Source of the DNA: Acidobacteriota bacterium | GTDB taxonomy: Bacteria; Acidobacteriota; Terriglobia; UBA7540 | Assembly (NCBI GenBank): GCA_902812365.1 | Contig: CADDZC010000033.1 | Span: 1 to 40,342 of the forward strand | Direction of reading: 5' to 3' | Length of the DNA stretch: 40,342 bases | In this document: in pieces, positions 15,300 to 40,017 of the stretch | Position numbering within the stretch: position 1 is the first letter of the stretch | Layout of the letters: every line of letters starts with the position of its first letter | Position numbers and translations under genes: made by a program | The notes under the pieces: model-generated | Databases searched by the model: none | What the model saw: only the letters and a program-made list of their open reading frames with translations | What the model was told of the DNA's origin: nothing

Positions 15300-15390
15300 T
15301 TTCTGGCGCTGTTGCTCGCCCACAACACAATGGCGTGGGGCGTCTCTGCCAGGGGGAGCGTCAACCGGATTTTCTGCCGCTGTTGCTGGC
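15282..15390. repeat. Direct repeat covering the start of the Cys-rich gene
   Basis: A segment of about 35 bases occurs at 15282-15319 and again about 71 bases further at 15352-15390. The cores share GTCAACCG, ATTTTCTG and CGCTGTTGCT with about three mismatches plus one indel. The first copy holds the ATG of the Cys-rich gene (minus strand); in the second copy the same position reads ATC. Confidence 0.75.
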
Positions 15391-15488
15391 ACTCGGGTGG
15401 CTCGGGGCCGCGGCGCCTGACCTGCCGGCGGAGGCCGGATTCGGGTAAACTAACCGGCTGCATTGAACTTCCGATCCGAGGGCCCGAG

Positions 15489-21296: not shown

Positions 21297-21369
21297 ATAT
21301 ACTCTTCGACCGCCGCCCTTCATGGCTGCCCAGCTCGTCGCAAACCGGCGGGATACGGAGGAGGATTCG

Positions 21370-24300: not shown

Positions 24301-24678
24301 CGGAATCCCGTGCGGCCGTACCGCAACCCGGCCTTTGCGGGGCGCGTGATTCTGGGCAGTCCAAAACAGTGGTTTAATCCCGCCGCTTTCCTGGCGCCCC
24401 CAAACGGCAGCGGATTTTACGGAAACCTGGGGAGAGACACGCTGCGCGGGCCCGGGCTCGCCACTTGGGACGTAGCGTTTCTGAAGGACCAGCGGCTTCG
24501 AGAGGGAATGGTGGTGGAGTTTCGCCTCGAAGTGTTCAATATCCTGAACCGCGCCAACTTTAACACGCCCAACCTGGTCGTCTTCACTCCTTCCGGGGTC
24601 TCGCCCACCGCCGGCGTCGTCACGAGCACGTCTACCCCGTCGCGGCAGATTCAGTTCGGGCTGAAACTGTTGTGGTAG
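21370..24678 (+). CDS. Oar-like TonB-dependent outer-membrane receptor (first copy)
   Basis: 1102 residues from the GTG at 21370, chosen because GGAGGAGG (21357-21364) lies 5 bases upstream and the protein then starts with a clean signal peptide (basic RPCRRRR, hydrophobic LWLVFWLLALAS, cleavage ARA-Q). The longer frame from 21322 has neither. Residues 38-125 are a Cna-B/carboxypeptidase-regulatory domain (ITGLVADPSGAAVAGAKV). A plug domain follows, including LPLNGRSYDELLTLNPGIV, then a large barrel ending in QFGLKLLW with the terminal aromatic residue used by the BAM machinery. No TonB box is recognised. Such receptors import large ligands, often glycans or peptides. It is followed by two hairpins and the HTH-TOBE gene. 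Confidence 0.93.
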   Translation: MEIRATRSGRPCRRRRLWLVFWLLALASAPGARAQTSSSITGLVADPSGAAVAGAKVIVTNVHTGTSRVALTGATGWYQVVALPVGEYEVRVEKPGFAEEIRKGVHLVVGQEAVVAVSLRLGAVAQEVTVNADAPPVSVSTADVSGLVGEHQIENLPLNGRSYDELLTLNPGIVNFTSQKTGGIGVSNSTVGNNFAVSGQRPQQNLFLLNGVEFTGAAENNMQPGGTSQQLLGVDAVREFNVLRDSYGAEYGKRPGAQVLIITRSGTNQLRGSLYEFLRNNLFDAPNFFDRGSAPLFQRHQFGASLGGPLRKDQTFAFGNYEGFRQHLHQTGVDLVPDAQARHGLLPCKLVNPGPNPCPASGLVNVGVAPGVAPLLALWPEPSPGAPDFGGIGEAFNSPLQTIRDDFGTARVDHVWSGKDSASGVYTLDDSADVTPTSSNLFSTDLENLREQVFSVEQTHVFLPAVLNTARVGFSRAAYFYTGEPTPGTPAARVPGFVAGKPVGAVVVGGSAAANPSAQIGLAGSNIGSHLHIARNLFTSEDRVTLTRGVHQFSFGAWFQRLEANEDLALAQYGQATFTGLQQFLQGVVASFLYDPAPTEMNWRSWLGAGYAQDVMRLTPKLALSIGVRNEFTTGWNEAHGRAANFVFKNSVIQTTPRIAPSAFTVNRARLLPQPRLGVAWSPVGRKTVLRMGFGMYNDLQDALGYRMDQNAPFNPSYGVSNLPVSSLPLPAAPVPARAKVLPGGVQPDLRTPTLISYSLRVERELSANTALTMAYVGSHGYHEIVSLDDNEPPPVVCPASPCPANYPGTFPPPLAGAPVLPGTDYIPAGTALPNPALGSAWAWFSVGDSSYNAWQVDLNHRFSAGLSFRGVYTWSKALDDGDSLNATAAANAPGLVSNPFNLRADWGPATYDVTHAAVLNGSYELPLGEHQRHLGRPGGIRRALASGWTVNGVLTAQSGFPFTPELSYNPSNNGDTRNPVRPYRNPAFAGRVILGSPKQWFNPAAFLAPPNGSGFYGNLGRDTLRGPGLATWDVAFLKDQRLREGMVVEFRLEVFNILNRANFNTPNLVVFTPSGVSPTAGVVTSTSTPSRQIQFGLKLLW

Positions 24679-24725: not shown

Positions 24726-24776
24726 GCCGGAGGCCCGGAAATCGAGTTGCGTCGAAACTCTTTCGGAGGTAGAAAT

Positions 24777-25199
24777 GTGGCATCCATGGACGAGACACGC
24801 CTGCTACTTCCGCGTGACGCGGCGAAAATCCTGGGGATCAGTTATCCGACGCTAAAGCAATGGATTTATAAGGGCAAGCTGCGCACCGTCCGAACCGCCG
24901 GCGGTCACCACCGGATCCCGGAGCCGGAGCTGGATCAGTTCCTGCACCGCCAGTCCGAGCGCCGTCCGGTCGAAGAACGGCGCGTCGGTTATCGCCGGAT
25001 TAGCGGGCGGAATCAACTGGTGGGTCGGGTCACCGAGATCCGGGTGGACGGCTTGATGGCCCAAGTCTCCATTTCCATCGGGGGGCAGAGGATCAACTCG
25101 ATCATTACGTCCGACGCTGTGCGCGAGATGCAGCTCAAGGTGGGCGACACCGTGGCAGCGCTCATCAAATCCACCGAAGTCATGATCGTCCGGCCCTGA
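24777..25199 (+). CDS. HTH-TOBE (Mop-like) transcription regulator
   Basis: 140 residues from the GTG at 24777, with GGAGGT (24765-24770) 6 bases upstream. Residues 7-60 are an excisionase/MerR-type helix-turn-helix (LLPRDAAKILGISYPTLKQW followed by the wing RTAGGHHRIPEPEL). Residues 75-138 are a TOBE/Mop-like beta domain (NQLVGRVTEIRVDGLMAQVSI ending VGDTVAALIKSTEVMIVRP), the fold that binds molybdate or tungstate in ModE and Mop. It probably binds DNA and responds to a small oxyanion or related ligand. It sits 98 bases after the receptor gene and could be in its transcript. The target genes are unknown. Few residues that would define the ligand can be assigned by eye. Confidence 0.87.
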   Translation: MASMDETRLLLPRDAAKILGISYPTLKQWIYKGKLRTVRTAGGHHRIPEPELDQFLHRQSERRPVEERRVGYRRISGRNQLVGRVTEIRVDGLMAQVSISIGGQRINSIITSDAVREMQLKVGDTVAALIKSTEVMIVRP

Positions 25200-25312: not shown

Positions 25313-27493
25313 ATGACTCGAAGGAGGCCGGGAATCGTGCCCTGTCCACTTGCCTCGCCGCCAAAACCCTGGAGCCGACTTCTTACAGTGATCGTGCTGC
25401 CCGCGATCGCTGGCCTGGCCGGCTCGCCGCGGATGTCCGGCCAGGCCATCTCCAAGTGTATCCGCACTGATAGGAACTCAGCGGCCATCGACGTCTGGGT
25501 GTCCCGGCCCGCCCCCTTCCGCATTCCCCGCACCGTATACGGCACGTTTCTTGAAGACATCGGGCATTCTGTCTTCGGCGGAGTCTCGGCTCAACTGCTG
25601 GATAACCCGAGCCTGGAGAGTTACGATGCGAGCCTCCGAACGTTGCGGGAGCGGTTCTCGCTTCCCGCTTTCGATGCCTCGACAGCGATGGGGCTGCCGC
25701 TGCCCTGGCTGCCGCTCCACGCCGCCGACGGATGGCGCTACGAGCCCCGCTGGGGCCACGCCGCGAACTCGGAGCGTTATCTCTACGTGATGGGGCTCGG
25801 CGGCGGCGAAGTCGGAATCCGGCAAAGCCTGTACGTTCCCATCGAGCGGGAGCGTGCCTATCGTGGCGTGTTGTTCGCCGCTGCCGATGGCCCCGGGTTA
25901 AGGTTGCGAGTCAGCTTTCGGCAACACGATCGGCCGGAGCGCGTGTTGGCCTCGACCGAAGTCAACGTGCCGCCCGCCGGCTCCGATCCGTCGAGGTGGC
26001 ACAAGCTCGGTTTCGAGCTGCACCTCCCCGAAGGCGCCGTCGCGCCCCTCACGCCGGTGGATTTCGCGGTGTCGCTGACCGGCCCGGACCGCGTCTCGCT
26101 GGACGAGATCCGCCTGTATCCGGCCGACGCCATCGACGGTCTCGACCCCGAGGTGATCCGACTGGCGAAGGCTCTCCGTTCGCCGCTTCTGAGGTATGGC
26201 GGCAATTTCACGAGCGGTTATCACTGGTGGGACGGCGTCGGGCCGCTCGACCGCCGCCCCACCCGGCTCAACCAGTCCTGGGGATATCCGGTGTTCAATG
26301 ACTTCGGGACCGACGAGCTTATGGATTTCTGCCGGCTGATCGGGGCGCGCCCGCAAATCTGCCTGAATCTCGGCAGCGGCTCGCCCGAGGAAGCGCGCGC
26401 CTGGGTGGCCTATTGCCAGGCGGGTGCGAAGACGCCGGAAGGCCGGGAGCGCGCGGCGAACGGCCACTTTGAACCTTACCGCGTGGCCGCCTGGGAGCTC
26501 GGCAACGAGCTATGGGGCCACTTCCAAATCGGATGGCAAACCCCGCAAGGCTATGCCCAACGGTACGAGCAGTTTTACCGCGCCATCCGGGACCTGGTAC
26601 CGCGCGACACGTTGATCTTCGCGAACGGCGCCGACGTGGACGCCTCTCGGGATTGGAACGGCGCGCTCATCGACCGCGACGGAGCCGACCTGAGGTATCT
26701 GACCAGCCATTTCGTGGTGGACACCAGCGAGCTGGCCGACCCGCGGGCCAGCCGCGATGCCGCCTGGGCCGCCGACTTGGCGATCCCGGTGGGGGTGGCG
26801 CGGGCCCTCGAGCCCGTGGAGGCCCAGATTGAAGCCAACCCCGTGACCCGCGGCCGGGTGAAGATCGCCTACACGGAATGGCTCTTCGTGGCCCCCGATC
26901 ATTCCCCCTTCCCGCGCTGGGACAACTTGGGAGGGGCTCTGATCGCTTCCGGCTGGCTGAATATGATTCTGAGCCACGCCGGCGAGGTGCCGGTTTCCGA
27001 CATGACCGGGCTGCTGGAATTTGCCGGTATTCATAAGAGCCGCGGGCGCGCCTACGTCAGTCCGCAGTACTGGGCGCTGTGGCTGTACTCGAATTTCGCG
27101 GGCGATACACCGGTGGCGACCGAGACCAGGGTTCGCGAATACGACGTGCACGGCGGTGTGCGGCGCGTGCCCGAGATTGCGAATGTCCCCGAGCTGGACG
27201 TGCTGGCGACGACCGACTCCGGCCGTCACGATGTGACGCTGTTTGTGGTCAACCGCGACTGGCAGGCGGCCGTTCCCGCCACCATCCGCCTGCGCGGGTT
27301 TGCCGCTCAGCCGCTCGCCTCTGTTCAGACCCTGAATGCCGATTCGATGCTGGCGCAGAATGACGACGAACATCCGAACGCCGTCCATCCCGTCGAGTCG
27401 AGTCTACCGGTGGGCGGCGACGCGATTCGGGAGACGTTCGCCGCTCATTCGCTGACCGTCATTCGCTTCAGCCGGGCCGGAGCGGCTCCATGA
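25313..27493 (+). CDS. Secreted GH51-type alpha-L-arabinofuranosidase
   Basis: 726 residues. A basic start followed by LLTVIVLPAIAGLAG (about 23-37) is a signal peptide or anchor. A sandwich-like N-terminal part begins TVYGTFLEDIGHSVFGGV, the usual GH51 opening. The TIM barrel includes LLRYGGNFTSGYHW and AWELGNELWG, with acid/base Glu399, and AYTEW, with nucleophile Glu522. A C-terminal beta domain closes the protein (VTLFVVNRDWQAAVPATIRL). It should remove terminal arabinofuranose from arabinoxylan, arabinan or similar plant polymers; other GH51 activities (endoglucanase) exist but fit less well. Its stop overlaps the start of the next TPR gene by four bases. A LacI-type operator precedes it, so induction by a sugar is likely. 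Confidence 0.9.
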   Translation: MTRRRPGIVPCPLASPPKPWSRLLTVIVLPAIAGLAGSPRMSGQAISKCIRTDRNSAAIDVWVSRPAPFRIPRTVYGTFLEDIGHSVFGGVSAQLLDNPSLESYDASLRTLRERFSLPAFDASTAMGLPLPWLPLHAADGWRYEPRWGHAANSERYLYVMGLGGGEVGIRQSLYVPIERERAYRGVLFAAADGPGLRLRVSFRQHDRPERVLASTEVNVPPAGSDPSRWHKLGFELHLPEGAVAPLTPVDFAVSLTGPDRVSLDEIRLYPADAIDGLDPEVIRLAKALRSPLLRYGGNFTSGYHWWDGVGPLDRRPTRLNQSWGYPVFNDFGTDELMDFCRLIGARPQICLNLGSGSPEEARAWVAYCQAGAKTPEGRERAANGHFEPYRVAAWELGNELWGHFQIGWQTPQGYAQRYEQFYRAIRDLVPRDTLIFANGADVDASRDWNGALIDRDGADLRYLTSHFVVDTSELADPRASRDAAWAADLAIPVGVARALEPVEAQIEANPVTRGRVKIAYTEWLFVAPDHSPFPRWDNLGGALIASGWLNMILSHAGEVPVSDMTGLLEFAGIHKSRGRAYVSPQYWALWLYSNFAGDTPVATETRVREYDVHGGVRRVPEIANVPELDVLATTDSGRHDVTLFVVNRDWQAAVPATIRLRGFAAQPLASVQTLNADSMLAQNDDEHPNAVHPVESSLPVGGDAIRETFAAHSLTVIRFSRAGAAP

Positions 27494-28479
27494 CCAAGCT
27501 GGCGGCGCTCGTGATCCTGGGAGTGGTGGGGTTCGCCTGGCCGGTGGCGGGCTCACCCGAGCAAAAAGAGCTGACGCTCAAGGAGGTGATCCGCCTCGTG
27601 CAGCACCGCAACCGCGGCGCGGCGCCGATCTCCGGGAGCCTGATGGAGCACGGGGTGGATTTCAACCTGACCCCCAAGATCGCTGAGAGGCTGCGGAAGG
27701 CGGGAGCGGACGACCAGGTGCTGCAGGCGGTTTGGAAAGCCACGCCGGTCGGCCGCACCACCCCCGTGGCGCTGTTCGCCAACGCCTCGGGAGCGGAGAT
27801 TCAGGCGAACTTCAAGGAAGCGGAGGCTTACGCCGCCATCCAGGACGAAGCCGACGCCTCCGTGAAGCTGCGAATGATTGCGGAATTTGAAAAGGAACTT
27901 CCCCAAAGCCCGTTACTGCCGTACGTTTACGCGCAGGCTGCCAAGGTCTACCAAGCCGAAGGGGATTACGCCCGCACGATCGAGTACGCCGAAAAGAGCC
28001 TCCAGCTCGACCCCAACAATGTTTTCGGGCTGATCCTGGCGGCCATGGTATTGCCCGAGCCGCGTTTGCTTCATGGCTCAAGCGCCGAGAACGGCCAGCG
28101 CCTGACGGAAGCGGAGAAGGATGCGAAGCGGGCGCTGGAGCTGATCGCGGCCTGGCCCCGGCTGCCCGGCGAAACGGAGGAAGCGTACCGGCGGAGGACG
28201 GGGGCTCTGGCGGCGGATGCCCATTACGCGCTGGGGATGGTCAACATGGCGCGCGCCCAGTTCGAGGCCGCCGCCGTCGAATATCGGCAGGCCATCGCCG
28301 CCGCCACCGGCCAGCCGGCCCCCCAGTATTATTTTCGCCTGGGCGAAGCCTATGCCAGCGAGGGGAAAACAGCCGAAGCCCTCGCGGCGCTCGAGCAGGC
28401 CTCGCAACTCGGCCGCGGAACACCGATTCAACAGTACGCCGATCAGATGATTCAACAACTGCAGGCGGGGAAGAATTAG
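27490..28479 (+). CDS. Secreted TPR protein
   Basis: 329 residues. Signal peptide at 1-22 (hydrophobic LAALVILGVVGFAWPVAG). Residues 25-90 form a helical domain common in Acidobacteria (GVDFNLTPKIAERLRKAGADDQVLQAV) whose function is not known to me. From about 110 on there are TPR-like helix pairs (YARTIEYAEKSLQLDPNN; AHYALGMVNMARAQFEAAAVEYRQAI; YYFRLGEAYASEGKTAEALAALEQA). The ATG overlaps the stop of the GH51 gene (ATGA), with GGAG 7 bases upstream, so translation is coupled. TPR proteins bind other proteins or ligands; here the context suggests a partner of the enzyme or of the receptor at 30610. Confidence 0.88.
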   Translation: MTKLAALVILGVVGFAWPVAGSPEQKELTLKEVIRLVQHRNRGAAPISGSLMEHGVDFNLTPKIAERLRKAGADDQVLQAVWKATPVGRTTPVALFANASGAEIQANFKEAEAYAAIQDEADASVKLRMIAEFEKELPQSPLLPYVYAQAAKVYQAEGDYARTIEYAEKSLQLDPNNVFGLILAAMVLPEPRLLHGSSAENGQRLTEAEKDAKRALELIAAWPRLPGETEEAYRRRTGALAADAHYALGMVNMARAQFEAAAVEYRQAIAAATGQPAPQYYFRLGEAYASEGKTAEALAALEQASQLGRGTPIQQYADQMIQQLQAGKN

Positions 28480-28517
28480 CTGGGGCGTTCCGCGGGCCCC
28501 GCCTTCATCCGAGGCCG

Positions 28518-30116
28518 ATGACACGACGAAGTTTCAAGCCGGAGACAGCGCAGACTTCCCGGCGCCGAACCGCCAGAGGGCTGCGGCGCTCGGTCGCGGG
28601 CGTATTCCTTTTCCTCCTTGCCTCGGGAACCCCGGGCTCCGCGCAGCCAAGCCATCTGGAGCGATCGTTGGCCCTGCTCGAGCAAGGGAACCTGAAGGAG
28701 GCCGAACGGGAGGCGCGCCTGGTGCTCGATGACCCTGTCTTACGGGCTCCCGCTTGGGCGATGCTCGGCACGATCCGGCTGCGGGAAGGAAAATATTCCG
28801 AAAGCGTCAGCGATTTGCAGAAAGCCATCCAGATCAATCCCCACCTGGTGGGGGCGCGCATCAACCTGGGCCAAGCTTACGAACTACGGGGCGATAACGC
28901 CAGGGCGCGCCAGGCCTGGGAGGCGGCGCTCCGGCTGGATCCGGGCAATTACAACGCCCGGTTTGATTTGTCCCAGCTGTTGGCCTCTCAGCACGACTAC
29001 CGCCGGTCGCTCGAGGCGGCGCAGCCGGTCATTGCCCAGCTCGAACGATCGCCGGAAGGCCTTTGGGTCCTGGCCAGCGATTATCTCGGGCTGAAGCAAA
29101 CCGATCGCCTGCGGAAAGTGGTGGGCGCGTGGCTGGGTTTGCCGGGCGCGCCGGTGGACGCCTCACTGAGGTTCGCAGCGCTGTTGATGAGCCGCGGAAT
29201 GATGCAGGAAGCGGCGCAGGTGTTGGAAAAGAGCAAGCCAGGCGGCTCGGCGTCCTACGCGGTGGCGGCGGAGCTCGGCGAATGCTACCTGTCGCTGGGC
29301 GACCTGAAGCGGGCCGAAGAGAACTATCACCTCGCCTTGGCCCTGAACCCGGATTCCACGCCGGCCAATCTGGGCTTGGCTCGGATCGCTGAAAAGCAGA
29401 AGGACACGGAAAAGGCGCTCGCTTATCTGATCCGGGCCAAGAAAGCTGAACCCCGGAATCCGGATGTGCTCTTCGAGTTCGGCAAGGTCTGCCTGGAAAG
29501 AGACCTGATGGACGATGCGCTTCCCGCCCTCGAACAGGCTGTGGCGCTCGAACCGCATCGAGACTCCTTCGTCTACGTCCTCGCCTCCGCGCACGTCGCT
29601 AAGAAGCAATATGCGCCGGCCGCGGCGCTTCTGGCCCAGCTCCTGGCCAAGCATCCGGACGATCCGGTTTTGAACTACGCCATGGGCGCCCTGCGCTATC
29701 TGCAACAGAACTACAGCGAGGCCGAGTCGTATTTGCAGAAGAGCATCCGCGAGGAGCCGCATCAGTTGGCCGCTCACTACTACCTCGCGCTGGTCGACGA
29801 GCGATTGGGGAACGACCGGCAGGCTGTGGCGCGATTCCGCAAGCTCCTCGAACGCTACCCTGAGCATGCGCCCTCTTACGTCGGTCTCGGGACCGTGCTG
29901 CTGAAAGAAAAGAAATACGGCGAGGCCGAGCAGGCGCTAGAAAGAGCCATTCAGTTGGACCCTCAGTCCGTCAAGGCTCACTATCAGTTGGGAATGCTGT
30001 TGGGGCGAATCGGCAAGTTGGCCGAATCCAACGAGCAGATGGCGATCGCGCAGAAGCTGGAGACGGCCGAGCGCTCAAAAAACGAAATGGAGCTTCGGCT
30101 GCTGATGCCCGATTGA
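28518..30116 (+). CDS. Secreted TPR-repeat protein
   Basis: 532 residues. After a basic, Arg-rich start (1-26) there is a hydrophobic stretch VAGVFLFLLASGTPGSAQ, a signal peptide. From about residue 45 to 520 the protein is an unbroken run of about 13 TPR units of 34 residues, with typical ends such as YEKAIQLDP and ALNPDSTPANLGLARIAEKQ. Many units end in LDPxxxxAHYxLG. There is no other domain. It lies 38 bases after the preceding TPR gene and is likely in the same operon with GH51. It probably acts as a periplasmic or surface scaffold; the partner cannot be named. Confidence 0.9.
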   Translation: MTRRSFKPETAQTSRRRTARGLRRSVAGVFLFLLASGTPGSAQPSHLERSLALLEQGNLKEAEREARLVLDDPVLRAPAWAMLGTIRLREGKYSESVSDLQKAIQINPHLVGARINLGQAYELRGDNARARQAWEAALRLDPGNYNARFDLSQLLASQHDYRRSLEAAQPVIAQLERSPEGLWVLASDYLGLKQTDRLRKVVGAWLGLPGAPVDASLRFAALLMSRGMMQEAAQVLEKSKPGGSASYAVAAELGECYLSLGDLKRAEENYHLALALNPDSTPANLGLARIAEKQKDTEKALAYLIRAKKAEPRNPDVLFEFGKVCLERDLMDDALPALEQAVALEPHRDSFVYVLASAHVAKKQYAPAAALLAQLLAKHPDDPVLNYAMGALRYLQQNYSEAESYLQKSIREEPHQLAAHYYLALVDERLGNDRQAVARFRKLLERYPEHAPSYVGLGTVLLKEKKYGEAEQALERAIQLDPQSVKAHYQLGMLLGRIGKLAESNEQMAIAQKLETAERSKNEMELRLLMPD

Positions 30117-30144
30117 GATCACGGCCGGTCAAGAGAGCCCTGTA

Positions 30145-30189
30145 GTTGATAACGCTGTCAGGCCGAGACGAACTTGTTGGGTTATCAAC
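30145..30189. repeat. Perfect 9-base inverted repeat after the TPR gene
   Basis: GTTGATAAC (30145-30153) and GTTATCAAC (30181-30189) are exact inverted copies with 27 bases between them. No T-run follows, so it is not a standard terminator. It could be a spaced operator or an RNA stem. Confidence 0.6.
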
Positions 30190-30467
30190 CGGCAGAGGCC
30201 GAACCGTGCGGGCGCTTCGGTGGGTTGGATCCGCCGATCCGGCATCCGGCCCGCTTTTAAAGGGCAGCAAGACCAGATATCTTATTGACAACAAATGAGA
30301 TGAAATTCTGAAGCGCCTGCCGTACCGCGCCGCCACGAAGCCGACTTTTGGCCCCGCCGATTTTCCTGGCCTTCCATTCCTCGCATTCCTGGGCGGCCGA
30401 CCGAAGCCACCAGCTTTCCGCAGGGACGAGTAAGATAAATACAGGATTAGGAACGATAAAAAAACTA

Positions 30468-30497
30468 TTGACACACCCAAGAAGAATGTAGTTAGAT
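30468..30497 (+). promoter_or_regulatory. Promoter of the second Oar-like receptor gene
   Basis: Perfect TTGACA (30468-30473), an 18-base spacer and TTAGAT (30492-30497), with a poly-A run (30457-30464) just upstream that could act as an UP element. The start would be near 30504, a few bases before the LacI-type operator. Confidence 0.45.
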
Positions 30498-30510
30498 GCC
30501 GGCTTGTCGA

Positions 30511-30524
30511 TGTAAGCGCTAACA
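30511..30524. promoter_or_regulatory. LacI-type operator before the second receptor gene
   Basis: TGTAAGCGCTAACA is a near-perfect palindrome around AGCGCT and a textbook LacI/GalR-family site. It lies just downstream of the predicted transcription start, where a bound repressor would block RNA polymerase. It matches 11 of 14 bases with the site at 25249. Confidence 0.6.
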
Positions 30525-30609
30525 TACGTCGGGCGCTTCCCGCCGCCCGAGCGCCGGGCGGAGGTTCAGGGGCGAGGGATTAGACCTCGTTTCGGGAAAG
30601 GGGGCTTGT

Positions 30610-33600
30610 ATGAAAAATCGGGTGCTGGAATGGCTGCTCTTGGCCGCCGTGGCCAGCTTGGGCGTGGCGGGGATGACTCGCGCCCAAGTGGCCGACCGCG
30701 CGGTCATCACGGGCATTGTCACCGACCCCTCCGGAGCCGCGGTGGCCGGAGCCAAGGTGACGGCGATTGACGAAGACACGGGCGAAAAGACGGTAGTGGG
30801 CACGAACGCGGCCGGCAACTACAGCACGCCTCCCTTGGTCCTGGGGACTTACACTTTGCAGGTCGAGGCCCCAGGATTTAAGACCTACTCGCGTCCGGGG
30901 ATCGTCCTGAGCGGCGGAGCCCAATACCGGCAGGATGTGCAATTGCAACTGGGCGCGGTGAGCCAGACCGTCGAGGTCACGGCCAGCTCCCAGATGATCA
31001 ACACCGAGACCCCGACGGTTGCCCACACCGTGGGCCAGACGTACTACCACGATTTGCCCGCCGTCATGGGAGCGGACATCCGGTTGGCGGAGGCTATGTT
31101 GCAATTACAGCCGGGGTATGTTCCGGTGGCGCCCAACGGCGACGCCATCTTTCGCGGCAGCCAGTTTCAGTCGCGGATTAACGGCGGCCAATCGATGGCC
31201 ACCGAGAACTGGTTCGACGGAGCCGCGTTCGGATACGCGGAAGGACACCAACAGACCCAGGAGAGCTCCCTGCCGTATGCGTCCGTCAAGGAATTGACGG
31301 TGGTCGAGAATACGTTCTCGGCGCAATACGGCCGCACCAGCGGTGGGTTCAATATTTACACGGTCAAGTCGGGCACCAAGGAGTTTCACGGTAATCTGTA
31401 TAACTTTCTGACCAGCAACAAACTGGACGCGCGCAACTTTTTCCTGCCCAATACCCTACCGCTCACTCAAGACAACTGGGGCCTGGCGGTGGGTGGACCA
31501 GTCCCGAAGGTGACGAAGTGGGGAAAGACGTTCTGGTTTTTCAACCTCGATGGTCTCGACTACCACAGCACCGTGAACATCGGGTACGTCAATACGCTGC
31601 CCACCCTGCCGGAACGCAGCGGCGATTTCAGCGGGCTCCTGAACACCAACAACGTGGTTGGGCATGACGCGTTGGGTCGCCCGATCTACCAGGGGGAGAT
31701 CTTCAATCCCGCCACCACCCGGACGATCAACGGGGTGCCGGTGAGGGATGGTTACGGATTTGACCCGGTTACTGGGTTGCCCACAGCCACGGCCAACATG
31801 ATCCCCGTCGGTGATCCTTTGCGCAGCCAGATCGCCGCCAAGCTGGTGCCGTTGATTCCGCCTCTCGACCGCAACACGCCCGTCCAAAACGAGTTTGGCG
31901 GAACTTCCGACGACAACAACAAGATCAACGTCCGAACCTGGCTCTTGCGGCTGGATCACACCTTCAACGACAAATTCTCCATGAGCAACACCTACTTTCA
32001 GAATCTTCGGCCGCGCATTGCGCACTGCGGCGGGCCCGGCGGCTGCAACACCCTGCATAACGGCGAAACCTCGCCGCAGTTGAATGACACCTATATCGGC
32101 CAGGGGTTCTACCAGAAGATTACCAACCATTTCGACCACCTGCAGTTCAACTGGGTCATCAAGCCCAATCTGTTCAACCACACCACAATCGCTTACGATC
32201 GATGGCACATGCAGGGCCACTCGCTATCAGGAAGAGTCGGCTGGAACTCCAAGCTGGGCCTGGGCATTCTCGACAACAACGCCGGGCCGCCTAACATCAG
32301 TTTTTCCGGCACCATTCCCTACACCAGTTACGGCACGCCGTGGCTGAGCGATGGGAGCGACATCAGCAATCGGTATCAGTTTCTGGATGATTTAACCTGG
32401 ATTAGCGGCCGGCATACGGTCAAGGGCGGAATCGAGTATCGCTGGATGGGGTATCCGCAAACCGGCTGGGCCGTCAACAGTGGAGGCTCATTCAACTTCA
32501 GCCAGTTGGAGACGGGAGGCTATGACGCCCTGGGGAACAACCTCTCCAGCACCGGAGACCCCTTTGCGTCGTTCCTGCTGGGTCAGGTGAACGGTGCTGG
32601 CTTCACCGTGTTCAGTGAATACCGGCCCACGCAGAAGTATTTCGCTCCGTGGATCAACGACGACTTCAAGGTGACGCCCAACCTAACCCTCACCTTGGGC
32701 CTGCGCTTCGACTGGTCGTCGGGGCTTTATGAGCAATTCGGGCGCTTCTCCACGTTCTCCCCCACGGTGCCCAATCCCGCCGCCGGTGGTCATCTGGGAG
32801 CCGACGTGTTTGGCGGCCAGGCTCCGGCGGGTAACAGCAACTGGAACGTGGGCCCACGCTTCGGCTTCGCGTATCGCCTGCACGACCGCAACGTCATCCG
32901 CGGCGGGTACGGCATCTATTACGCCGGCGTTCCGGCTAGCCTGTTCAATTCCTACCCGGTCGACGGATATTTGACGAACCCGACCGTGCCCAACTTCACC
33001 AACGGCCAGTTTCCCGCTTACTACTGGGACAACGGCTTTCCCAAAGCCAACATTGTCACGCCGCCGGTGCTGAACCCTTCGGTCATGAACGGAGGCAATC
33101 CGGTGGCGGTCGCCCCGGATACCTATCTGATGCCCCGATATCAGAACTGGTCGCTGTCATTCCAACGCCAGCTCAGCAACAACATGGCGCTGGACATCGC
33201 CTACGTGGGCAACCACGGCACGCGGCTGATTGCCGGTTCGGACTTTGCCGGGTTGGCCGTGAACGCTAATAACCCCCGGGTGCTGAGTCTGGGGCCGGCG
33301 CTCTTGCAGGCGGATATCAATTCTCCACAGGCCAAAGCCGCCGGCATCGCGCCTCCTTACCCCGGCTTTACGGGAGACGTGGCCCAAGCCTTGCGCCCGT
33401 GGCCGCAATATCAACACATCCTGTGGCGGAATATTCCGGCCGGGACCAGTATCTACCATGCCCTGCAGATCACGTTTGACCGGCGGCTGACCCACGGCTT
33501 CCAGTTCCGCGCCGCCTACACGTGGTCAAAGCTCATCAACGACGGGGCGGACGCGGGTCAAGCCGGCTACGGCCCTCCGATTCAAGACCCGACAAACTTC

Positions 33601-34188
33601 CAGAAAGAACTGCGCGCTGTCAGCTATGACGACGTGCCGCAAATCCTTTCGCTCGGCTGGATCTACCAATTGCCGTTCGGATCCGGCAGGAGGTTTGGCG
33701 GCGCGACGACGGGCGCGGTCGAGAAACTGATCTCGAACTGGCAGTTTTCGGCCATACAAACGTACCAAACTGGCCGGCCGCTCCATATCTTCATGAACAA
33801 CAACCTGGGCGGCCTGCTGTTTAACTCCGACAAGCGGCCCAACAAGGTCGGACCGGGAATCAATACGAGTTTCCGCGATCCGAATGCCGACGCTTACCTG
33901 CTTAAAACCGGATGGGCCGACCCGGGGCCCCTGGCCTTCGGCAACGCCGGAAACCAGGACCCCCATACGCGGGGATTCCCGTACTACAACGAAGACCTGT
34001 CTGTTTTCAAAGACACTTACTTCGGCGAGAATCGATATGTGCGGTTGGAGGCGGACGCTGGCAACCTTTTCAACCGCGTCGATTTTTGTCCGCCCGATAC
34101 GAATTGGAGCGACCCGTTTTTTGGGAGGACGGGCAGCCAGTGCAATATCTCACGGCGCATCCAGTTCGGGCTGCAAATCTTCTTCTAG
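30610..34188 (+). CDS. Oar-like TonB-dependent outer-membrane receptor (second copy)
   Basis: 1192 residues. Signal peptide 1-25 (LLLAAVASLGVAGMTRA). Residues 32-120 are a Cna-B/carboxypeptidase-regulatory domain (ITGIVTDPSGAAVAGAKVTA). The plug follows (about 130-260; SVKELTVVENTFSAQYGRTSGG), then a large barrel ending QFGLQIFF with C-terminal Phe. AAGGGGG (30598-30604) lies 5 bases before the ATG. It has the same layout as the receptor at 21370 but differs through the plug (DLPAVMGADIRLAEAML in place of the LPLNGRS type), so it belongs to another subgroup. It imports an unknown large ligand. The preceding GH51/TPR genes and the shared operator type suggest a plant glycan or its fragments. 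Confidence 0.94.
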   Translation: MKNRVLEWLLLAAVASLGVAGMTRAQVADRAVITGIVTDPSGAAVAGAKVTAIDEDTGEKTVVGTNAAGNYSTPPLVLGTYTLQVEAPGFKTYSRPGIVLSGGAQYRQDVQLQLGAVSQTVEVTASSQMINTETPTVAHTVGQTYYHDLPAVMGADIRLAEAMLQLQPGYVPVAPNGDAIFRGSQFQSRINGGQSMATENWFDGAAFGYAEGHQQTQESSLPYASVKELTVVENTFSAQYGRTSGGFNIYTVKSGTKEFHGNLYNFLTSNKLDARNFFLPNTLPLTQDNWGLAVGGPVPKVTKWGKTFWFFNLDGLDYHSTVNIGYVNTLPTLPERSGDFSGLLNTNNVVGHDALGRPIYQGEIFNPATTRTINGVPVRDGYGFDPVTGLPTATANMIPVGDPLRSQIAAKLVPLIPPLDRNTPVQNEFGGTSDDNNKINVRTWLLRLDHTFNDKFSMSNTYFQNLRPRIAHCGGPGGCNTLHNGETSPQLNDTYIGQGFYQKITNHFDHLQFNWVIKPNLFNHTTIAYDRWHMQGHSLSGRVGWNSKLGLGILDNNAGPPNISFSGTIPYTSYGTPWLSDGSDISNRYQFLDDLTWISGRHTVKGGIEYRWMGYPQTGWAVNSGGSFNFSQLETGGYDALGNNLSSTGDPFASFLLGQVNGAGFTVFSEYRPTQKYFAPWINDDFKVTPNLTLTLGLRFDWSSGLYEQFGRFSTFSPTVPNPAAGGHLGADVFGGQAPAGNSNWNVGPRFGFAYRLHDRNVIRGGYGIYYAGVPASLFNSYPVDGYLTNPTVPNFTNGQFPAYYWDNGFPKANIVTPPVLNPSVMNGGNPVAVAPDTYLMPRYQNWSLSFQRQLSNNMALDIAYVGNHGTRLIAGSDFAGLAVNANNPRVLSLGPALLQADINSPQAKAAGIAPPYPGFTGDVAQALRPWPQYQHILWRNIPAGTSIYHALQITFDRRLTHGFQFRAAYTWSKLINDGADAGQAGYGPPIQDPTNFQKELRAVSYDDVPQILSLGWIYQLPFGSGRRFGGATTGAVEKLISNWQFSAIQTYQTGRPLHIFMNNNLGGLLFNSDKRPNKVGPGINTSFRDPNADAYLLKTGWADPGPLAFGNAGNQDPHTRGFPYYNEDLSVFKDTYFGENRYVRLEADAGNLFNRVDFCPPDTNWSDPFFGRTGSQCNISRRIQFGLQIFF

Positions 34189-34205
34189 CTTTCCGTCCCA
34201 CTCCG

Positions 34206-34248
34206 CCGCGGCGGCCCGCCGAGTTTCGCGGGTTGCCGCGGTTTTTTT
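34206..34248 (+). terminator. Strong intrinsic terminator after the second receptor gene
   Basis: CCGCGGC (34206-34212) pairs with GCCGCGG (34235-34241). Two G-U pairs and CCCGC/GCGGG extend the stem around a short loop, and seven T residues follow (34242-34248). It lies 17 bases after the stop codon. It separates the receptor gene from the convergent minus-strand operon. Confidence 0.88.
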
Positions 34249-34254
34249 GTTGGC

Positions 34255-34271
34255 GAGCCCCGTAAGGGCTC
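34255..34271 (-). repeat. Hairpin just after the ASPIC-protein gene
   Basis: GAGCCC (34255-34260) and GGGCTC (34266-34271) form a 6-pair stem with a 5-base loop, four bases past the minus-strand stop. On the minus strand it is followed by A residues rather than T, so termination there is unlikely without help. Confidence 0.4.
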
Positions 34272-34274
34272 CTC

Positions 34275-36134
34275 CTACCGGCGCGAGAACTCTTCAACAC
34301 TCACAATTCCTTGGCCTTCCCGGATCACAACGAGCCGGTTGGCCTCGACTTGACCCACCGAGTCCGTATGGCCGGACGGCCAGCGGACTTCCACCCCATC
34401 CGCTCGCGTGGCGCTCCCCAATCCGAAGTGGAGCCGGAAATCGTTTTGGGAAATGTAACTGGATCCGCTCATAACTTCCTGGATCTGCGCATGGCCGCGC
34501 GTCACCACCCGCACGCGCGCCCCGATGGCACTGCGATTCGACTTCGTGCCCATACACTTGACCTTTAACCAGTTGTGGCCGGCCGCGGAGTCGTTGCGGA
34601 GGAGCGAGGGAGGCTCATTCAGATTGCAGACGGCGACGTCGATGTCGCCGTCGTTGTCAAAGTCTCCGAAGGCCGCGCCGCGGCTGCTGTGCAGGGCCGC
34701 CACGCCCGAGCCTGCCTCCTCCGAGACATCGCCGAACCGGCCGTTGCCGAGATTGCGATAGACGATCTTTCGTTGCTTGAAGGTGGCGGGCAGCCGATGG
34801 GCGGCGATTTCCGGGAAGACGTGTCCGTTGCACATGAAGATGTCGGGCCAGCCGTCGTTGTCGAGATCAAAGAGCCCGACGCCCCATCCCAGAAACTTGG
34901 TATTCATTCCCAGGCCCGCCTGAAACACGGCATCATAAAACGTGCCGTCGCCATTGTTGTGGTACAAGTTGGCCCGCTGGTCGGAAAAATTCGTCTTGAC
35001 GATGTCGAGCCAGCCGTCGCCATCGTAGTCGCCCACCGCCACGCCCATACCGCCCTGCGCGGCCCCGTCCTCGTTGAAAGCGCAACCGGCCTGGGTCGCG
35101 ATCTCGGTGAACGTACCATCGCGATTGTTGTGATAGAGCCGGCTGGCGGTCGTATCACAGGCCACGTAAATGTCAGGCCAGCCGTCGTTATCGAAGTCCG
35201 CCGCCACCGCCGTCAACCCGTAAGAGCCGACCGGAACCCATTGGGCGCTCACCGACGTGGGCAAACCGAGGCCGTGGGGAATGGTGACGCCGGAGACCTC
35301 GGACACATCCTCGAACGTTCCGTCGCCGCGGTTGTGGTAGAGAAGGTTCGTTCCGCCGCCCAGCCCTTGCGGCCCGCAGGCGACCGGAATCCCGAAATAA
35401 CGACAATACTGATTTTCGCCCGGCTGCGGCGCCAGGCGCGGATCAAAGTCGACGTAATTGGCCACGAACAGGTCCAGATGGCCGTCGCGATCATAGTCGA
35501 GGAAGCAGCAGCCGCTGTTCCAGCGGACGTGCGGGCCAGTCTGCAGCAAGCCGGCTTCCTTGGTGACGTCGGTGAACGTACCATCGCCGTTGTTGTGATA
35601 GAGAACATTCTGGCCCCAGAAGGTGACGAACAGATCGTCGTAACCGTCGTTGTCGTAGTCGCCGACGCAGCATCCTTGACCCCAGCCCGATCGCACCAAT
35701 CCGGCTCTTTCCGTCACATCGGTGAACGTTCCGTCCCGGTTGTTGTGAAACAGACGGTTCGACGGCGGGCGTCCCGCCAGAATGCCATCAAACCGGGTGC
35801 CGTTGACGAAGAAAAGATCGATCCAGCCGTCGTGATCGTAATCGAAAAACGCGACCCCGCTTCCAAACTCCTCGATCAGGTAGCGCTTGGAGGCGACGCC
35901 GCCGCACACGTTCTCCGCTGCCCCCAGCCCCGCCGAGCCCGCGACATCGACGAACGAAAATGCCGGCCGCTCTTTGCCTCTCGTCGCCGCCACCGCGCCG
36001 CCCGGCCGGAGGGGAACTGCCGCCCCTGCTTCAGCCAGGAATCCGTAGATCGGCGCCCAGAAGGCGAGCCGGCCGATCGACCGCAGAAAATCGCCGCGTG
36101 ACATCATCGGTTGTTGGTCGAGCTTCCGCCCCAT
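34275..36134 (-). CDS. FG-GAP/VCBS repeat protein with ASPIC-UnbV domain (CRTAC1 type)
   Basis: 619 residues. The start has a signal-like segment after a short basic region (FLRSIGRLAFWAPIYGFLAEAGA). The body is a beta-propeller of FG-GAP/VCBS units with at least seven calcium-loop motifs of the form DxDxDGxxD (DYDHDGWID, DYDNDGYDD, DYDRDGHLD, DFDNDGWPD, DYDGDGWLD, DLDNDGWPD, DFDNDGDID). The units alternate with LYHNNGDGTFTDVT-type segments. The C-terminal 75 residues form the ASPIC/UnbV domain (SAIGARVRV to VEVRWPSGHTD). Such proteins are exported and probably bind ligands or the cell surface; the biochemical role is unknown. The start lies 6 bases after the stop of the TPR gene upstream, so it ends a three-gene operon. 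Confidence 0.93.
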   Translation of the reverse strand: MGRKLDQQPMMSRGDFLRSIGRLAFWAPIYGFLAEAGAAVPLRPGGAVAATRGKERPAFSFVDVAGSAGLGAAENVCGGVASKRYLIEEFGSGVAFFDYDHDGWIDLFFVNGTRFDGILAGRPPSNRLFHNNRDGTFTDVTERAGLVRSGWGQGCCVGDYDNDGYDDLFVTFWGQNVLYHNNGDGTFTDVTKEAGLLQTGPHVRWNSGCCFLDYDRDGHLDLFVANYVDFDPRLAPQPGENQYCRYFGIPVACGPQGLGGGTNLLYHNRGDGTFEDVSEVSGVTIPHGLGLPTSVSAQWVPVGSYGLTAVAADFDNDGWPDIYVACDTTASRLYHNNRDGTFTEIATQAGCAFNEDGAAQGGMGVAVGDYDGDGWLDIVKTNFSDQRANLYHNNGDGTFYDAVFQAGLGMNTKFLGWGVGLFDLDNDGWPDIFMCNGHVFPEIAAHRLPATFKQRKIVYRNLGNGRFGDVSEEAGSGVAALHSSRGAAFGDFDNDGDIDVAVCNLNEPPSLLRNDSAAGHNWLKVKCMGTKSNRSAIGARVRVVTRGHAQIQEVMSGSSYISQNDFRLHFGLGSATRADGVEVRWPSGHTDSVGQVEANRLVVIREGQGIVSVEEFSRR

Positions 36135-36140
36135 GCGCCG

Positions 36141-37232
36141 TCAGGGATCAATCGGGGATGCTCCGGCGTCCGCCTGCCGGGCCTCTCGCCAGCGTTCCGA
36201 TTCCACCGTCTCGTTCTGCTCCAGCTTTTCGAAGGTTTGCAGGGCGGCGCGGCTTTCCTCTAGTCTGCCCAGTTTTCGCAGCGCCAAACTCAACAGGTAG
36301 TAATAGCTTGAAGTGCGGGAATTGACGGCAATCGCCTTTCGGGCCGCCTCCGCACACGGTCCCCACTCGCCTTCGTACTCGTAAGCCTTGGCCATCTGGA
36401 AGTAAGCCAGATCAGACCGAGGGTTGATTGACAGCGCCTGGCGAGCATAATCGAGGGCTCGCTGCGGTTGCTGCTGGCGGTTATAAAAGGCGCTCAGGTA
36501 TTCATAAGGCCAGGGTGACTTCAGCCCTTGTTGCTGATCCAGGCGGACAGCGATGCGGTAGTACTTGGCGGCCTCCTCACTTCTCCCCAGCGCTTCCTCG
36601 ACCAGACCGAGGTTGTTGTACGCCTTCATATAGGAGGGGTTCCACCGGAGGGCCGCTTCAAACTCACGCTCGGCCAGCGGATAGACGCCGCGCGTGTAGT
36701 AGAGGCGCCCGAGCCAGTAATGAATCTCGGCCGAGCGCGGCTCCAGGCGGGCCGCCTGCTCGAGCTCCGTTTCGGCAAGATCGTAGCGACCGACGATCGT
36801 GCAGTCCAACCCCAGGATCTTGTGCGCCTCGCCGTTGTTGACGTCCAGCTCCAGAGACCGCGACAGCTCTTTGACGGAATCGCCGATCTGGTGGAGGCGA
36901 AACAGGACGTAACCCAAGTCGTAATGCGCTCGGGCCGAGTCCGCATGGTCGCGAACATAGCGGGTGAGCGCTGGCAGCACGGTTTGCGTTTGGTTTCGGG
37001 CAATCTGATCCTCCAGGCCGCCGAGCTCATCGCCCGGGTCTGACCGCGGTTTCCCGGCTGCCTCCTGGGGGGAACGCCACATGTTCCGATCCGCCGGCCT
37101 CGCGGCCGCCTCTTGCCCGCCTTTCGCCGGCGGGCCGGAGAGCATCAGCGCGCAGCCCAGAATCACCAGTCCCGGCAACGCCTTCGGAGGGAGTGGCCCG
37201 GCGGGGTCACGAGGTTTCTGCCGCTTCCGCAT
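36141..37232 (-). CDS. Exported TPR protein
   Basis: 363 residues from the ATG at 37232, which gives a basic start (MRKRQKPRD) and a hydrophobic export segment (LPGLVILGCALMLSG). An ATG at 37289, overlapping the upstream stop by 14 bases, is an alternative, and the frame remains open to 37391. LGC could be a weak lipobox, which would make it a lipoprotein. From about residue 75 there are about 7 TPR units (YDLGYVLFRLHQIGDSVKEL; IHYWLGRLYYTRGVYPLAEREF; AYNNLGLVEEALGRSEEAAKYY). The tail is acidic and Glu/Ala-rich. It lies between a giant TPR protein and the ASPIC protein in one operon. It may help assemble or anchor them. Confidence 0.87.
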   Translation of the reverse strand: MRKRQKPRDPAGPLPPKALPGLVILGCALMLSGPPAKGGQEAAARPADRNMWRSPQEAAGKPRSDPGDELGGLEDQIARNQTQTVLPALTRYVRDHADSARAHYDLGYVLFRLHQIGDSVKELSRSLELDVNNGEAHKILGLDCTIVGRYDLAETELEQAARLEPRSAEIHYWLGRLYYTRGVYPLAEREFEAALRWNPSYMKAYNNLGLVEEALGRSEEAAKYYRIAVRLDQQQGLKSPWPYEYLSAFYNRQQQPQRALDYARQALSINPRSDLAYFQMAKAYEYEGEWGPCAEAARKAIAVNSRTSSYYYLLSLALRKLGRLEESRAALQTFEKLEQNETVESERWREARQADAGASPIDP

Positions 37233-37275
37233 CTTGATTCCACTCACCGCCTGCCCGCAGCGCCAACTCGCGCCG

Positions 37276-40017
37276 TCAATTCCTTTCATGCAGCCGCGCC
37301 AACGCCCGGTCGAGGTTCTCTCTCGCCTCCTGATACCGAGGGTTGCGCTCGAGGGCTTGCCGGAAGGCCGCCACCGCCCGGCGGGCATCACCCTGTTGAG
37401 CCAGAGTCAACCCCAAATAGTTATACGCCTCGGCGCCTGACGGGTGGAGCCGGATGGCGTCCTGGAACGTCGCGGCGGCTTTCGCCAACTCTCCCCTCTT
37501 CAGCCAGGCTTGCCCGAGGGCGCAATCAGCCTCATAGTCATCCGGCTTCAGCCTCAGCGCCTCGCGAAACTCCGCCGCCGCCCCTTCAAGGTCTCCGCTT
37601 TTCATCAAAGCCGCGCCGAGGTTGCGGTGAGCTTCGAATGATCCGGGCGCGAGCCGAACCGCTTCGCGCAGGTCCGCAAGAGCTTGCTCCGTGTGCCCGC
37701 GGCGGATTTCCGCCTCCGCCCGGCTCAGATCGGAGCCGGCGATCTGGTTCCGATCCTCCGCTTGAATCAACTTCTGGGCCAGGGCCAGTTCGGAGGCCGA
37801 CTCGCTGGACCGTCCCGTCCGCCCCAGCGCGAGGCTCAACTGATAGTGAGCGTCGCCCCGCGACGGATCAAGGCGGATGGCCTGGCGAAGATGAACGATG
37901 GCCTCTTCCGGCGACTTCTCATCGAGCAGAGCCTTGCCCAACATATATTGGGCGTCGGCCGATCCGGGGTCCATCGCCACGACTTTACGCAGTTCGGCGA
38001 TCTCTTCCGGCAAGCCGGACTTCCGGCCATACGCCACGGCCAGATTGTAGTGGGCGCTTTCCAGGTTTGGCTGAAGCTTAACCGCCGCCTGCAGCTCGCG
38101 GATCGCCTCGTCGACATCACGCTCGATGAGAATGGCTCCCAAATTGGCATGCGCCTCGGCGTAATCCGGCTTGTAATCCAACGCCGCCCGGAATTCCGAG
38201 ATCGCCTCGTCCGTCTGCCCGGCTTGGGCCAGCACCAACCCCAGGTCGTTATGGACCTCGTAAAAGTCGGGCGCTTCGCGCAGGGCCTCTCGAAACTCTT
38301 GCATGACTTCTTCTCGATCCGCTCCCTGCCGGCCCAGCAAGCGACCGAGGACGTAGTGGGCTTCCGGCAGGCGGGGTTTATTTTGAAGGCTCCGGCGGAG
38401 TTCGCTGATCGCTTCGCTCACATTGACCGAGCCCGCTACGGCACGAACATCCAGGTGCAGGGCGGCTTCGAACTGCGCCAGCGCCGGGCCCATCTGTCCC
38501 AGCCTCAGCAGGACTACCGCTTCGTCCATATACGCCGAGAAGTCGTTGCGGTTGAGGCTGAGGGCGCATTCCAAAACGGGCAGGGCCTCTCGAAGGTCGC
38601 CCGTCTCTTTGAGCGCCATCCCCAGAAACGCATAAGCGTCACCGGCCGCGGGATTCAACGTCACCGCCTTCCGCAGCTCCGCCACTCCTTCCGCCCGCTG
38701 GCCGGCGTACCACAGCGCCACGCCCAAGTTGTAGTGGGCGTCGTCCGACCGCGGGTCGAGTTCCACCGCCCGGCGAAGCTCCTGCGCGGCCGCCCTCAAA
38801 TCGCCCTGTTGGCCGAGGACAAAGCCGAGCAGGTTGTGAGCCTGAGCGTCGTCTGGATCCAGGCTGACGGCCCGGGCCAGCGCCTCGCGTGCCCCGCTCA
38901 GGTCTCCGCCGGCCAACAGTCGCGCCGCCCGCTCGTCAAGGTTCGCCGCCCCCGTGTTGCGCGCCCGAACCGCGGCGGCCCTCGGTCGGGACGAGGCCAG
39001 TTGCTTCAAGGTGGATCCCAGGCTGTAATACGCCTCGATCATTTCCGGTTTCGCACGAAGAGCGTCTTCGAAACTTTCCACGGCCTGGGTCAAGTTGCCC
39101 ATCTGGCGGAAGGTTTGGGCCATTTCGTAATGGGCCTGATAGGCTAGGGCGCCGGGGTGGGCGGCCAAAGCCCGCTCGAGCTGCTCGAGGGCGGCGCGCG
39201 GATGGCCTTGAGCGCGCAAAACCAGGCCTAGGTTGATGCGAGCCTGGGGATCAGCGGGCGCGAGCTGGGTGGCGCGCTCCAACGCCGCTCGGGCGCCTTC
39301 GAGATCGCCCGCGCTCGCCAGCGCCGAACCCAGGTTGTTATAGGCCCGCACAAAGTTCGGCTGAAGGGCGACCGCTTCCCGATACTCCCGGATGGCATCC
39401 GGCAAGTCATTGTTCTGGACAGCCACATTCCCCAGGCCGTTGTGGGCCTCGGCGGATTTCGGATTTTGGCTCACCACCCTCTGGTATTCCGCCGCCGCCT
39501 TCTTCAGCTCGCCCATCTCCTGCCAGGTCAGGGCCAGTGCCAGCCGGGCCGATTCGTCCCCCGGCCGCAACTGGAGCGCCGCCTGCAGCTCGGATGATGC
39601 TTTCGTGAAGTCTCCGGCGTCGCCCGCCAGCACGCCGAGGTAGTAGTGAGCTTGCGCGTCGCGGGGATCGAGTTGGGCAGCCTTTTCGAGAGCCGTTTGC
39701 GCCTCCTGCGGATGACCCAGCCTGATGAGGGCAATTCCCAAGCCGTCGTAGGCCGCCGCCCATTGGGGATCCGCTGAAAGCGCTTGCGTGAACTCCTCGG
39801 CCGCCCGCTTCCATTGCCGTTGCCTTAGCCAAGCGGAACCTTGGCGGTAATGAGATTCAGCCGGGGCAGGCGGGGTTTGGGCAGCGAGTGCGGGAACGAG
39901 GAGCGCGATGACCGCCGCGGCGAACGTCCAGCCACCGCGGTCCCTGAGCTCGAAACCGGCGCCTCCTCTGCGGAGGCTGCCGCTGGTCGCGCCCTTGTTC
40001 GTGGAAGTCTTCCGCAT
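37276..40017 (-). CDS. Giant exported TPR protein
   Basis: 913 residues. The N-terminus is basic (1-26), followed by a hydrophobic export segment (FAAAVIALLVPALAAQ). Residues 50-905 are almost all TPR, about 23-24 units of 34 residues. Many units share AHYNLGVAL, AxxxLRxAVxLxP and similar consensus stretches, and the DNA repeats every 102 bases. A short break rich in Ala and Arg (about 345-360) and another near 545-555 divide the array into three blocks. No catalytic domain is visible. The array would form a long superhelix suited to binding an extended partner. No ribosome binding site is present. An extended -10 box lies about 25 bases upstream. It overlaps or abuts the next TPR gene. Confidence 0.92.
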   Translation of the reverse strand: MRKTSTNKGATSGSLRRGGAGFELRDRGGWTFAAAVIALLVPALAAQTPPAPAESHYRQGSAWLRQRQWKRAAEEFTQALSADPQWAAAYDGLGIALIRLGHPQEAQTALEKAAQLDPRDAQAHYYLGVLAGDAGDFTKASSELQAALQLRPGDESARLALALTWQEMGELKKAAAEYQRVVSQNPKSAEAHNGLGNVAVQNNDLPDAIREYREAVALQPNFVRAYNNLGSALASAGDLEGARAALERATQLAPADPQARINLGLVLRAQGHPRAALEQLERALAAHPGALAYQAHYEMAQTFRQMGNLTQAVESFEDALRAKPEMIEAYYSLGSTLKQLASSRPRAAAVRARNTGAANLDERAARLLAGGDLSGAREALARAVSLDPDDAQAHNLLGFVLGQQGDLRAAAQELRRAVELDPRSDDAHYNLGVALWYAGQRAEGVAELRKAVTLNPAAGDAYAFLGMALKETGDLREALPVLECALSLNRNDFSAYMDEAVVLLRLGQMGPALAQFEAALHLDVRAVAGSVNVSEAISELRRSLQNKPRLPEAHYVLGRLLGRQGADREEVMQEFREALREAPDFYEVHNDLGLVLAQAGQTDEAISEFRAALDYKPDYAEAHANLGAILIERDVDEAIRELQAAVKLQPNLESAHYNLAVAYGRKSGLPEEIAELRKVVAMDPGSADAQYMLGKALLDEKSPEEAIVHLRQAIRLDPSRGDAHYQLSLALGRTGRSSESASELALAQKLIQAEDRNQIAGSDLSRAEAEIRRGHTEQALADLREAVRLAPGSFEAHRNLGAALMKSGDLEGAAAEFREALRLKPDDYEADCALGQAWLKRGELAKAAATFQDAIRLHPSGAEAYNYLGLTLAQQGDARRAVAAFRQALERNPRYQEARENLDRALARLHERN

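Follow-up and report, generated by a model that had tools for sequence, protein, structure and literature searches.

The 40,342-nucleotide window analysed here, which constitutes contig C33 in a genome assembly of 3.5 Mb, contains a set of genes that has, in our judgement, about an even chance of being a SusD-less nutrient-capture locus of the glycan-utilisation type, in which exported TPR and ASPIC proteins would form a scaffold accessory to an Oar-type receptor. The grouping of TPR genes with such receptors exceeds chance in this genome, and receptor/TPR/ASPIC sets recur elsewhere in the Acidobacteriota. Members of this phylum are abundant in soils, and they encode dozens of Oar-type receptors per genome and almost no SusD, which bears on how polymer fragments are held and imported; the recurring set names candidate partners for these tasks.

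Gene content and organisation of the locus

The locus comprises the following genes, given with their positions in the window:

21322..24678, + strand: second Oar-type receptor, 1118 aa (Pfam OMP_b-brl_4, 630 bits; CarboxypepD_reg)
about 24744..25199, + strand: small HTH_17/MerR-like and TOBE protein (Pfam TOBE, HTH_17)
25313..27493, + strand: GH51 alpha-L-arabinofuranosidase-type enzyme, exported, 726 aa (Pfam Alpha-L-AF_C; phmmer to solved GH51)
27490..28479, + strand: TPR protein a (TPRa), exported, 329 aa; start overlaps the GH51 stop
28518..30116, + strand: TPR protein b (TPRb), exported, 532 aa, 14-repeat TPR superhelix
30610..34188, + strand: Oar-type receptor, 1192 aa (OMP_b-brl_4, 539 bits; CarboxypepD_reg, 70 bits)
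34275..36134, - strand: FG-GAP/UnbV-ASPIC (CRTAC1-like) protein, exported, 619 aa, Tat-like signal SRGDFLR
36141..37391, - strand: TPR protein c (TPRc), exported; ends 6 nt short of the ASPIC gene
37276..40017, - strand: TPR protein d (TPRd), exported, 913 aa, >20 repeats; first gene of the TPRd-TPRc-ASPIC operon

The seven genes named in the earlier note, from GH51 to TPRd, were all recovered in place and with the domains it had assigned (open reading frames, Pfam). Immediately upstream of GH51, beyond the range which that note covered, the same strand encodes the second Oar-type receptor and the HTH/TOBE protein, the latter a possible candidate for a ligand-sensing regulator to judge from its domains. 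On the plus strand, GH51 and TPRa overlap by 4 nt, TPRa and TPRb are 38 nt apart, and 493 nt separate TPRb from the receptor at 30610. This receptor gene and the ASPIC gene stand tail to tail, with 86 nt between their stops. The start of TPRc, most likely near 37289-37391, overlaps the TPRd gene at 37276; as TPRd, TPRc and ASPIC either overlap or lie at most 6 nt apart, they are taken to form an operon on the minus strand.

Both receptors match the Oar family of TonB-dependent receptors (OMP_b-brl_4, PF25183) across the full barrel, and the 30610 protein combines this barrel with a CarboxypepD_reg domain. A Pfam match to the Plug domain was absent from receptor 30610 and weak in receptor 21322. 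Receptors with PF25183 are numerous in this genome, which encodes dozens of them. A further Oar-type receptor gene (G000:C7:23615-26353) is interrupted by several stops and frame changes, which may point to a pseudogene or to a faulty assembly.

Pfam support for the GH51 enzyme is modest, with 50 bits for Alpha-L-AF_C and the catalytic ASD1 domain under the cut-off. Its similarity to solved GH51 arabinofuranosidases (phmmer E about 1e-55) and the alignment of the GNE and EW active-site motifs, which contain both catalytic glutamates, nevertheless make 25313..27493 a firmly predicted member of this family. The protein at 34275-36134 scores over the cut-off for FG-GAP (194 bits) and UnbV_ASPIC (82 bits) and is similar to the solved cartilage acidic protein 1 (9etn; phmmer E 2e-22), placing it in the CRTAC1/ASPIC family, with which it shares the FG-GAP repeats and the ASPIC domain. 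Unlike the solved CRTAC1, it is bacterial, has a Tat-type signal and shares its operon with two TPR genes. ASPIC proteins mostly contain the Tat-type motif SRRxFL; export of the window copy, which reads SRGDFLR, via the Tat route is uncertain.

In the loose sense of a receptor with one or more glycoside hydrolases and a regulator, the genes constitute a polysaccharide-utilisation locus: GH51 and HTH/TOBE adjoin two receptors, and a GH97 enzyme is encoded farther upstream (15147-17522, + strand). Between GH97 and the receptors lies the gene for DNA polymerase I, carried by the opposite strand. A canonical locus is defined by adjacent SusC and SusD, and here a receptor is present but SusD is absent from the genome.

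Linkage of TPR genes to receptors and ASPIC genes

Linkage in the genome itself was assessed in stretches around receptors and in 28 receptor-free control stretches, using codon-bias gene calling and a custom HMM for TPR genes. An immediately adjacent TPR gene was found at 11/36 Oar receptors, on the same strand in 9 of these 11 cases and with several receptor-TPR gaps of <130 nt. TPR genes made up 11 of 65 receptor neighbours (17%) versus 6 of 459 control genes (1.3%; p=3e-7). The control stretches happened to be TPR-poor, and a second baseline was therefore taken from a genome-wide estimate of 57 to 100 TPR genes, against which TPR-Oar adjacency still had P=1e-7 to 2e-5. ASPIC genes showed a similar association, with a TPR neighbour at 8 of the 11 sampled in this genome (p=4e-10).

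The linkage was repeated in G010, which belongs to another genus of the same family, where 8/22 receptors had a TPR neighbour (p=7e-4) and TPR genes accounted for 23% of genes at the receptor versus 3% (3/96) of genes farther off in the same stretches. In G029, from another family of the class, it was seen at one of 20 receptors, as part of a TPR-ASPIC-Oar-TPR run. Receptors lacking a TPR neighbour thus numbered 25/36 in this genome, 14/22 in G010 and 19/20 in G029, and Granulicella plasmid pACIX902 has no TPR gene immediately beside its annotated receptors. The notion of a TPR partner for each acidobacterial Oar is weakened by the last two of these results.

Receptors with a linked TPR gene were scattered over a tree of 91 receptors, requiring 14 changes for this genome and G010 together versus a mean of 14.6 after shuffling (p=0.45). 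The linkage has consequently arisen or been retained many times, and a single inherited receptor-TPR clade is rejected as its source. When the best ASPIC gene of each relative was considered, 5/20 had a TPR neighbour, and most belonged to another ASPIC group without TPR neighbours, so that TPR linkage is confined to some ASPIC groups.

Conservation in related genomes

Among 40 relatives, close orthologues of receptor 30610 were identified in G001, G002 and G016 (60-70%), and three relatives in G003 (about 49-58%). Orthologues of TPRb (46-51%) were found only in G001, G002 and G016 of the 40, the next best match falling to 30%. These are the same three genomes that hold receptor orthologues at 60% or above, a coincidence with a chance of about 1 in 10,000, uncorrected for genome kinship. 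TPRb lies beside the receptor on the same strand in the window, convergently in G001 and divergently in G002, and in G016 it has moved into the TPRd-TPRc-ASPIC operon. This operon is also conserved in G001, G014 and G003 (two copies) and, with TPRb added, in G016. The arrangement in which the receptor faces the ASPIC-TPRc block recurs in G002, where the contig ends within TPRc, and in G003. Loss of the TPR genes from receptor loci of relatives had been named in the earlier note as counting against its proposal; in most relatives having the receptor, they are retained with it.

The enzyme adjoining the receptor orthologue differs, being GH51-like in G002, G003 and G016 and a trehalase in G001, and TPRa is paired with the GH51-like genes of G002, G003 and G016. 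The usual TPRa paralogue (L134, L135, L136) is near-universal in the family; at L134 it adjoins genes for RNase III, signal peptidase and an AsmA-like protein, and it matches no Pfam family at 1e-5.

The TPR proteins and the absence of SusD

In AlphaFold2 models, TPRb (pLDDT 89) and TPRc (pLDDT >90 across the repeats) form plain TPR superhelices throughout except for disordered ends. Among the matches listed, the closest solved folds to both models were designed TPR proteins and the OGT TPR domain, and TPRb was also near the bacterial envelope TPR proteins PilF, MamA and LbcA. The TPRb model aligns with the envelope scaffolds (LbcA, PilF/PilW, MamA) and with the OGT superhelix at Z 20-27; those proteins are linked to a protease, pilus or glycosyltransferase, whereas the window TPR genes are linked to an outer-membrane receptor.

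In SusD itself, four TPR units are combined with the domains PF14322 and PF07980, and the protein serves as the lid of SusC (PMC11351036). It was not among the 50 fold matches listed for either the TPRb or the TPRc model, and none of the four window TPR proteins matched a SusD family in Pfam at E<=1e-3 (for the two longest, among the best 25 families listed), while seven of seven Bacteroidota SusD controls matched both PF07980 and PF14322. The TPR proteins carry Sec-type signals. By one crude rule applied to both groups, a lipobox was present in 1/48 TPR proteins near Oar or ASPIC genes versus 38/64 SusD proteins, and in none of the four from the window. The candidate explanation that the TPR proteins are SusD homologues is rejected, as they have neither a SusD domain nor a lipobox.

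The statement of the earlier note that SusD is missing here holds beyond the window proteins, as neither PF07980 nor PF14322 was found anywhere in the genome or in any of the 40 relatives (41 genomes). Across the Acidobacteriota, PF07980 (SusD_RagB) was detected in 4/396 genomes. The lack of SusD thus characterises the phylum and is not specific to this locus.

Comparison with other Acidobacteriota and Bacteroidota

Similar sets occur on plasmids of cultured Acidobacteriota: Acidisarcina pACPOL3 contains an Oar-CRTAC1-TPR run beside GH172, LacI and fucP genes, and Granulicella tundricola pACIX901 contains Oar-TPR-CRTAC1-CRTAC1 with genes for trehalase, alpha-glucosidase and GH88 next to it. 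Contig C14 of the genome studied here has the order Oar-TPR-ASPIC. Several loci with linked TPR genes also encode glycosidases, LacI regulators or malectin. Granulicella Oar-like receptors also adjoin M14 and S9 peptidases.

For Bacteroidota, a Hymenobacter FG-GAP/ASPIC protein was used as query, yielding 80 loci (L143-L222) and, with the seed, 81, which are the best matches of one query and not independent. SusD adjoined the ASPIC gene in 51/81 of these loci (SusC-SusD-ASPIC order) and lay within two genes in 62/81, and none of the 81 had a TPR gene; Pfam bore out the SusD call in all seven cases sampled. Since bacteroidotal ASPIC genes of the kind sampled usually follow SusC-SusD without a TPR gene, their neighbourhoods parallel the acidobacterial receptor/TPR/ASPIC sets. 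Both kinds of locus have a TonB-dependent receptor, glycosidases, a gene for a helical-repeat partner and, often adjoining, an ASPIC gene. The acidobacterial set differs in that it lacks SusD, its receptor is of the Oar type (PF25183), and the partner, which is optional, is a TPR protein exported by Sec and not lipidated. The position of ASPIC beside SusC-SusD, matched in Acidobacteriota, gives an initial clue to the function of bacterial CRTAC1-like proteins, an uncharacterised family. Our literature search found no description of receptor-TPR-ASPIC sets and no paper linking Oar with TPR, ASPIC with SusD or FG-GAP with SusC/SusD.

Putative function and alternative explanations

If the locus serves nutrient capture, the Oar-type TonB-dependent receptor would import an oligosaccharide and the exported GH51 enzyme would cleave off arabinofuranose. 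The four Sec-exported TPR solenoids and the putatively Tat-exported CRTAC1-like FG-GAP/ASPIC protein could act as an envelope scaffold that keeps the receptor, its substrate or the enzyme together, presumably by physical contact. As the TPR proteins have no lipid anchor, a position at the periplasmic face or release is likelier than a surface-anchored lid, although the side is itself a prediction. From GH51 only, we infer an arabinose-containing glycan as the substrate, a weak call because the neighbouring enzyme changes from GH51 in the window to a trehalase in G001. Besides the linkage to receptors and ASPIC genes in this genome and again in G010, a scaffold is favoured by the scatter of linked receptors on the tree, the three genomes shared by the TPRb and receptor orthologues, the facing arrangement in G002 and G003, and the glycosidase-associated runs of Acidisarcina and Granulicella. 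The preference of the sampled bacteroidotal ASPIC genes for SusD over TPR neighbours, together with the rarity of SusD_RagB in Acidobacteriota, points the same way. Against it, a TPR neighbour is missing from most Oar receptors, the adjoining enzyme is not constant, and co-location could stem from variable regions rich in expanded families. The latter explanation, by which Oar, TPR and ASPIC genes are adjacent without joint function, is in keeping with the large size of all these paralogue families, the scattered linked receptors, the 25/36 receptors without a TPR neighbour and the little linkage in G029. We consider it rather unlikely, given the low local background in G010, the predominance of same-strand pairs with several short gaps, and the persistence of TPRb with the receptor in the same three genomes despite changes of orientation.

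The TPR proteins might instead be periplasmic adaptors for protein or peptide handling, with a receptor that secretes or imports a protein or peptide and a TPR protein that recruits a protease or cargo. Sec signals without a lipobox, the modelled resemblance of TPRb to LbcA, the TPR partner of protease CtpA, the peptidases beside Granulicella receptors and a protease-TPR-Oar row on contig C9 would all fit, but the window encodes a GH51 enzyme, and glycosidases, LacI regulators or malectin are found at several of the TPR-linked loci; we regard this as unlikely. Very doubtful, in our view, is that the TPR proteins are functional equivalents of SusD, located at the surface, where they would bind glycan and shut the Oar barrel like a lid. 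The usual ASPIC neighbours are indeed a receptor and SusD in the sampled Bacteroidota and a receptor and TPR protein in the acidobacterial sets, SusD is nearly absent from the phylum, and the Oar-TPR-ASPIC order (contig C14, Granulicella) mirrors SusC-SusD-ASPIC. The models, however, are plain superhelices without SusD domains, lipoboxes are far rarer than in SusD, and most Oar receptors stand without a TPR neighbour, whereas SusC-SusD pairing is the hallmark of canonical polysaccharide-utilisation loci (PMC11351036). Of the suggestion that secreted TPR proteins replace SusD, the parts that stand are the absence of SusD, the retention of TPR genes with the receptor, the recurrence of the Oar/TPR/ASPIC set in Acidobacteriota, often by glycoside hydrolases, and the SusC and SusD neighbours of bacteroidotal ASPIC genes; replacement itself is unproven, as the TPR proteins have no SusD domain and no lipid anchor and are missing by most receptors. 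A broader version, in which Acidobacteriota evolved their own receptor-partner system, with exported TPR solenoids and ASPIC proteins doing the substrate-holding job of SusD in a convergent outer-membrane capture machine, is decidedly speculative.

Further receptor-associated gene sets

Three other contigs of this genome contain receptor-associated sets with additional genes. On contig C9 (L068 3417-10022), an S41-PDZ protease, a TPR protein and an Oar receptor are encoded in a row on one strand, which recalls a protease with a TPR adaptor. On contig C10 (L042 1508-10890), a selenocysteine synthase (SelA) gene adjoins an Oar-TPR-ASPIC set. Contig C49 (L071 5576-15992) encodes an Oar receptor followed by four consecutive exported TPR proteins on the same strand and then a polysaccharide deacetylase.
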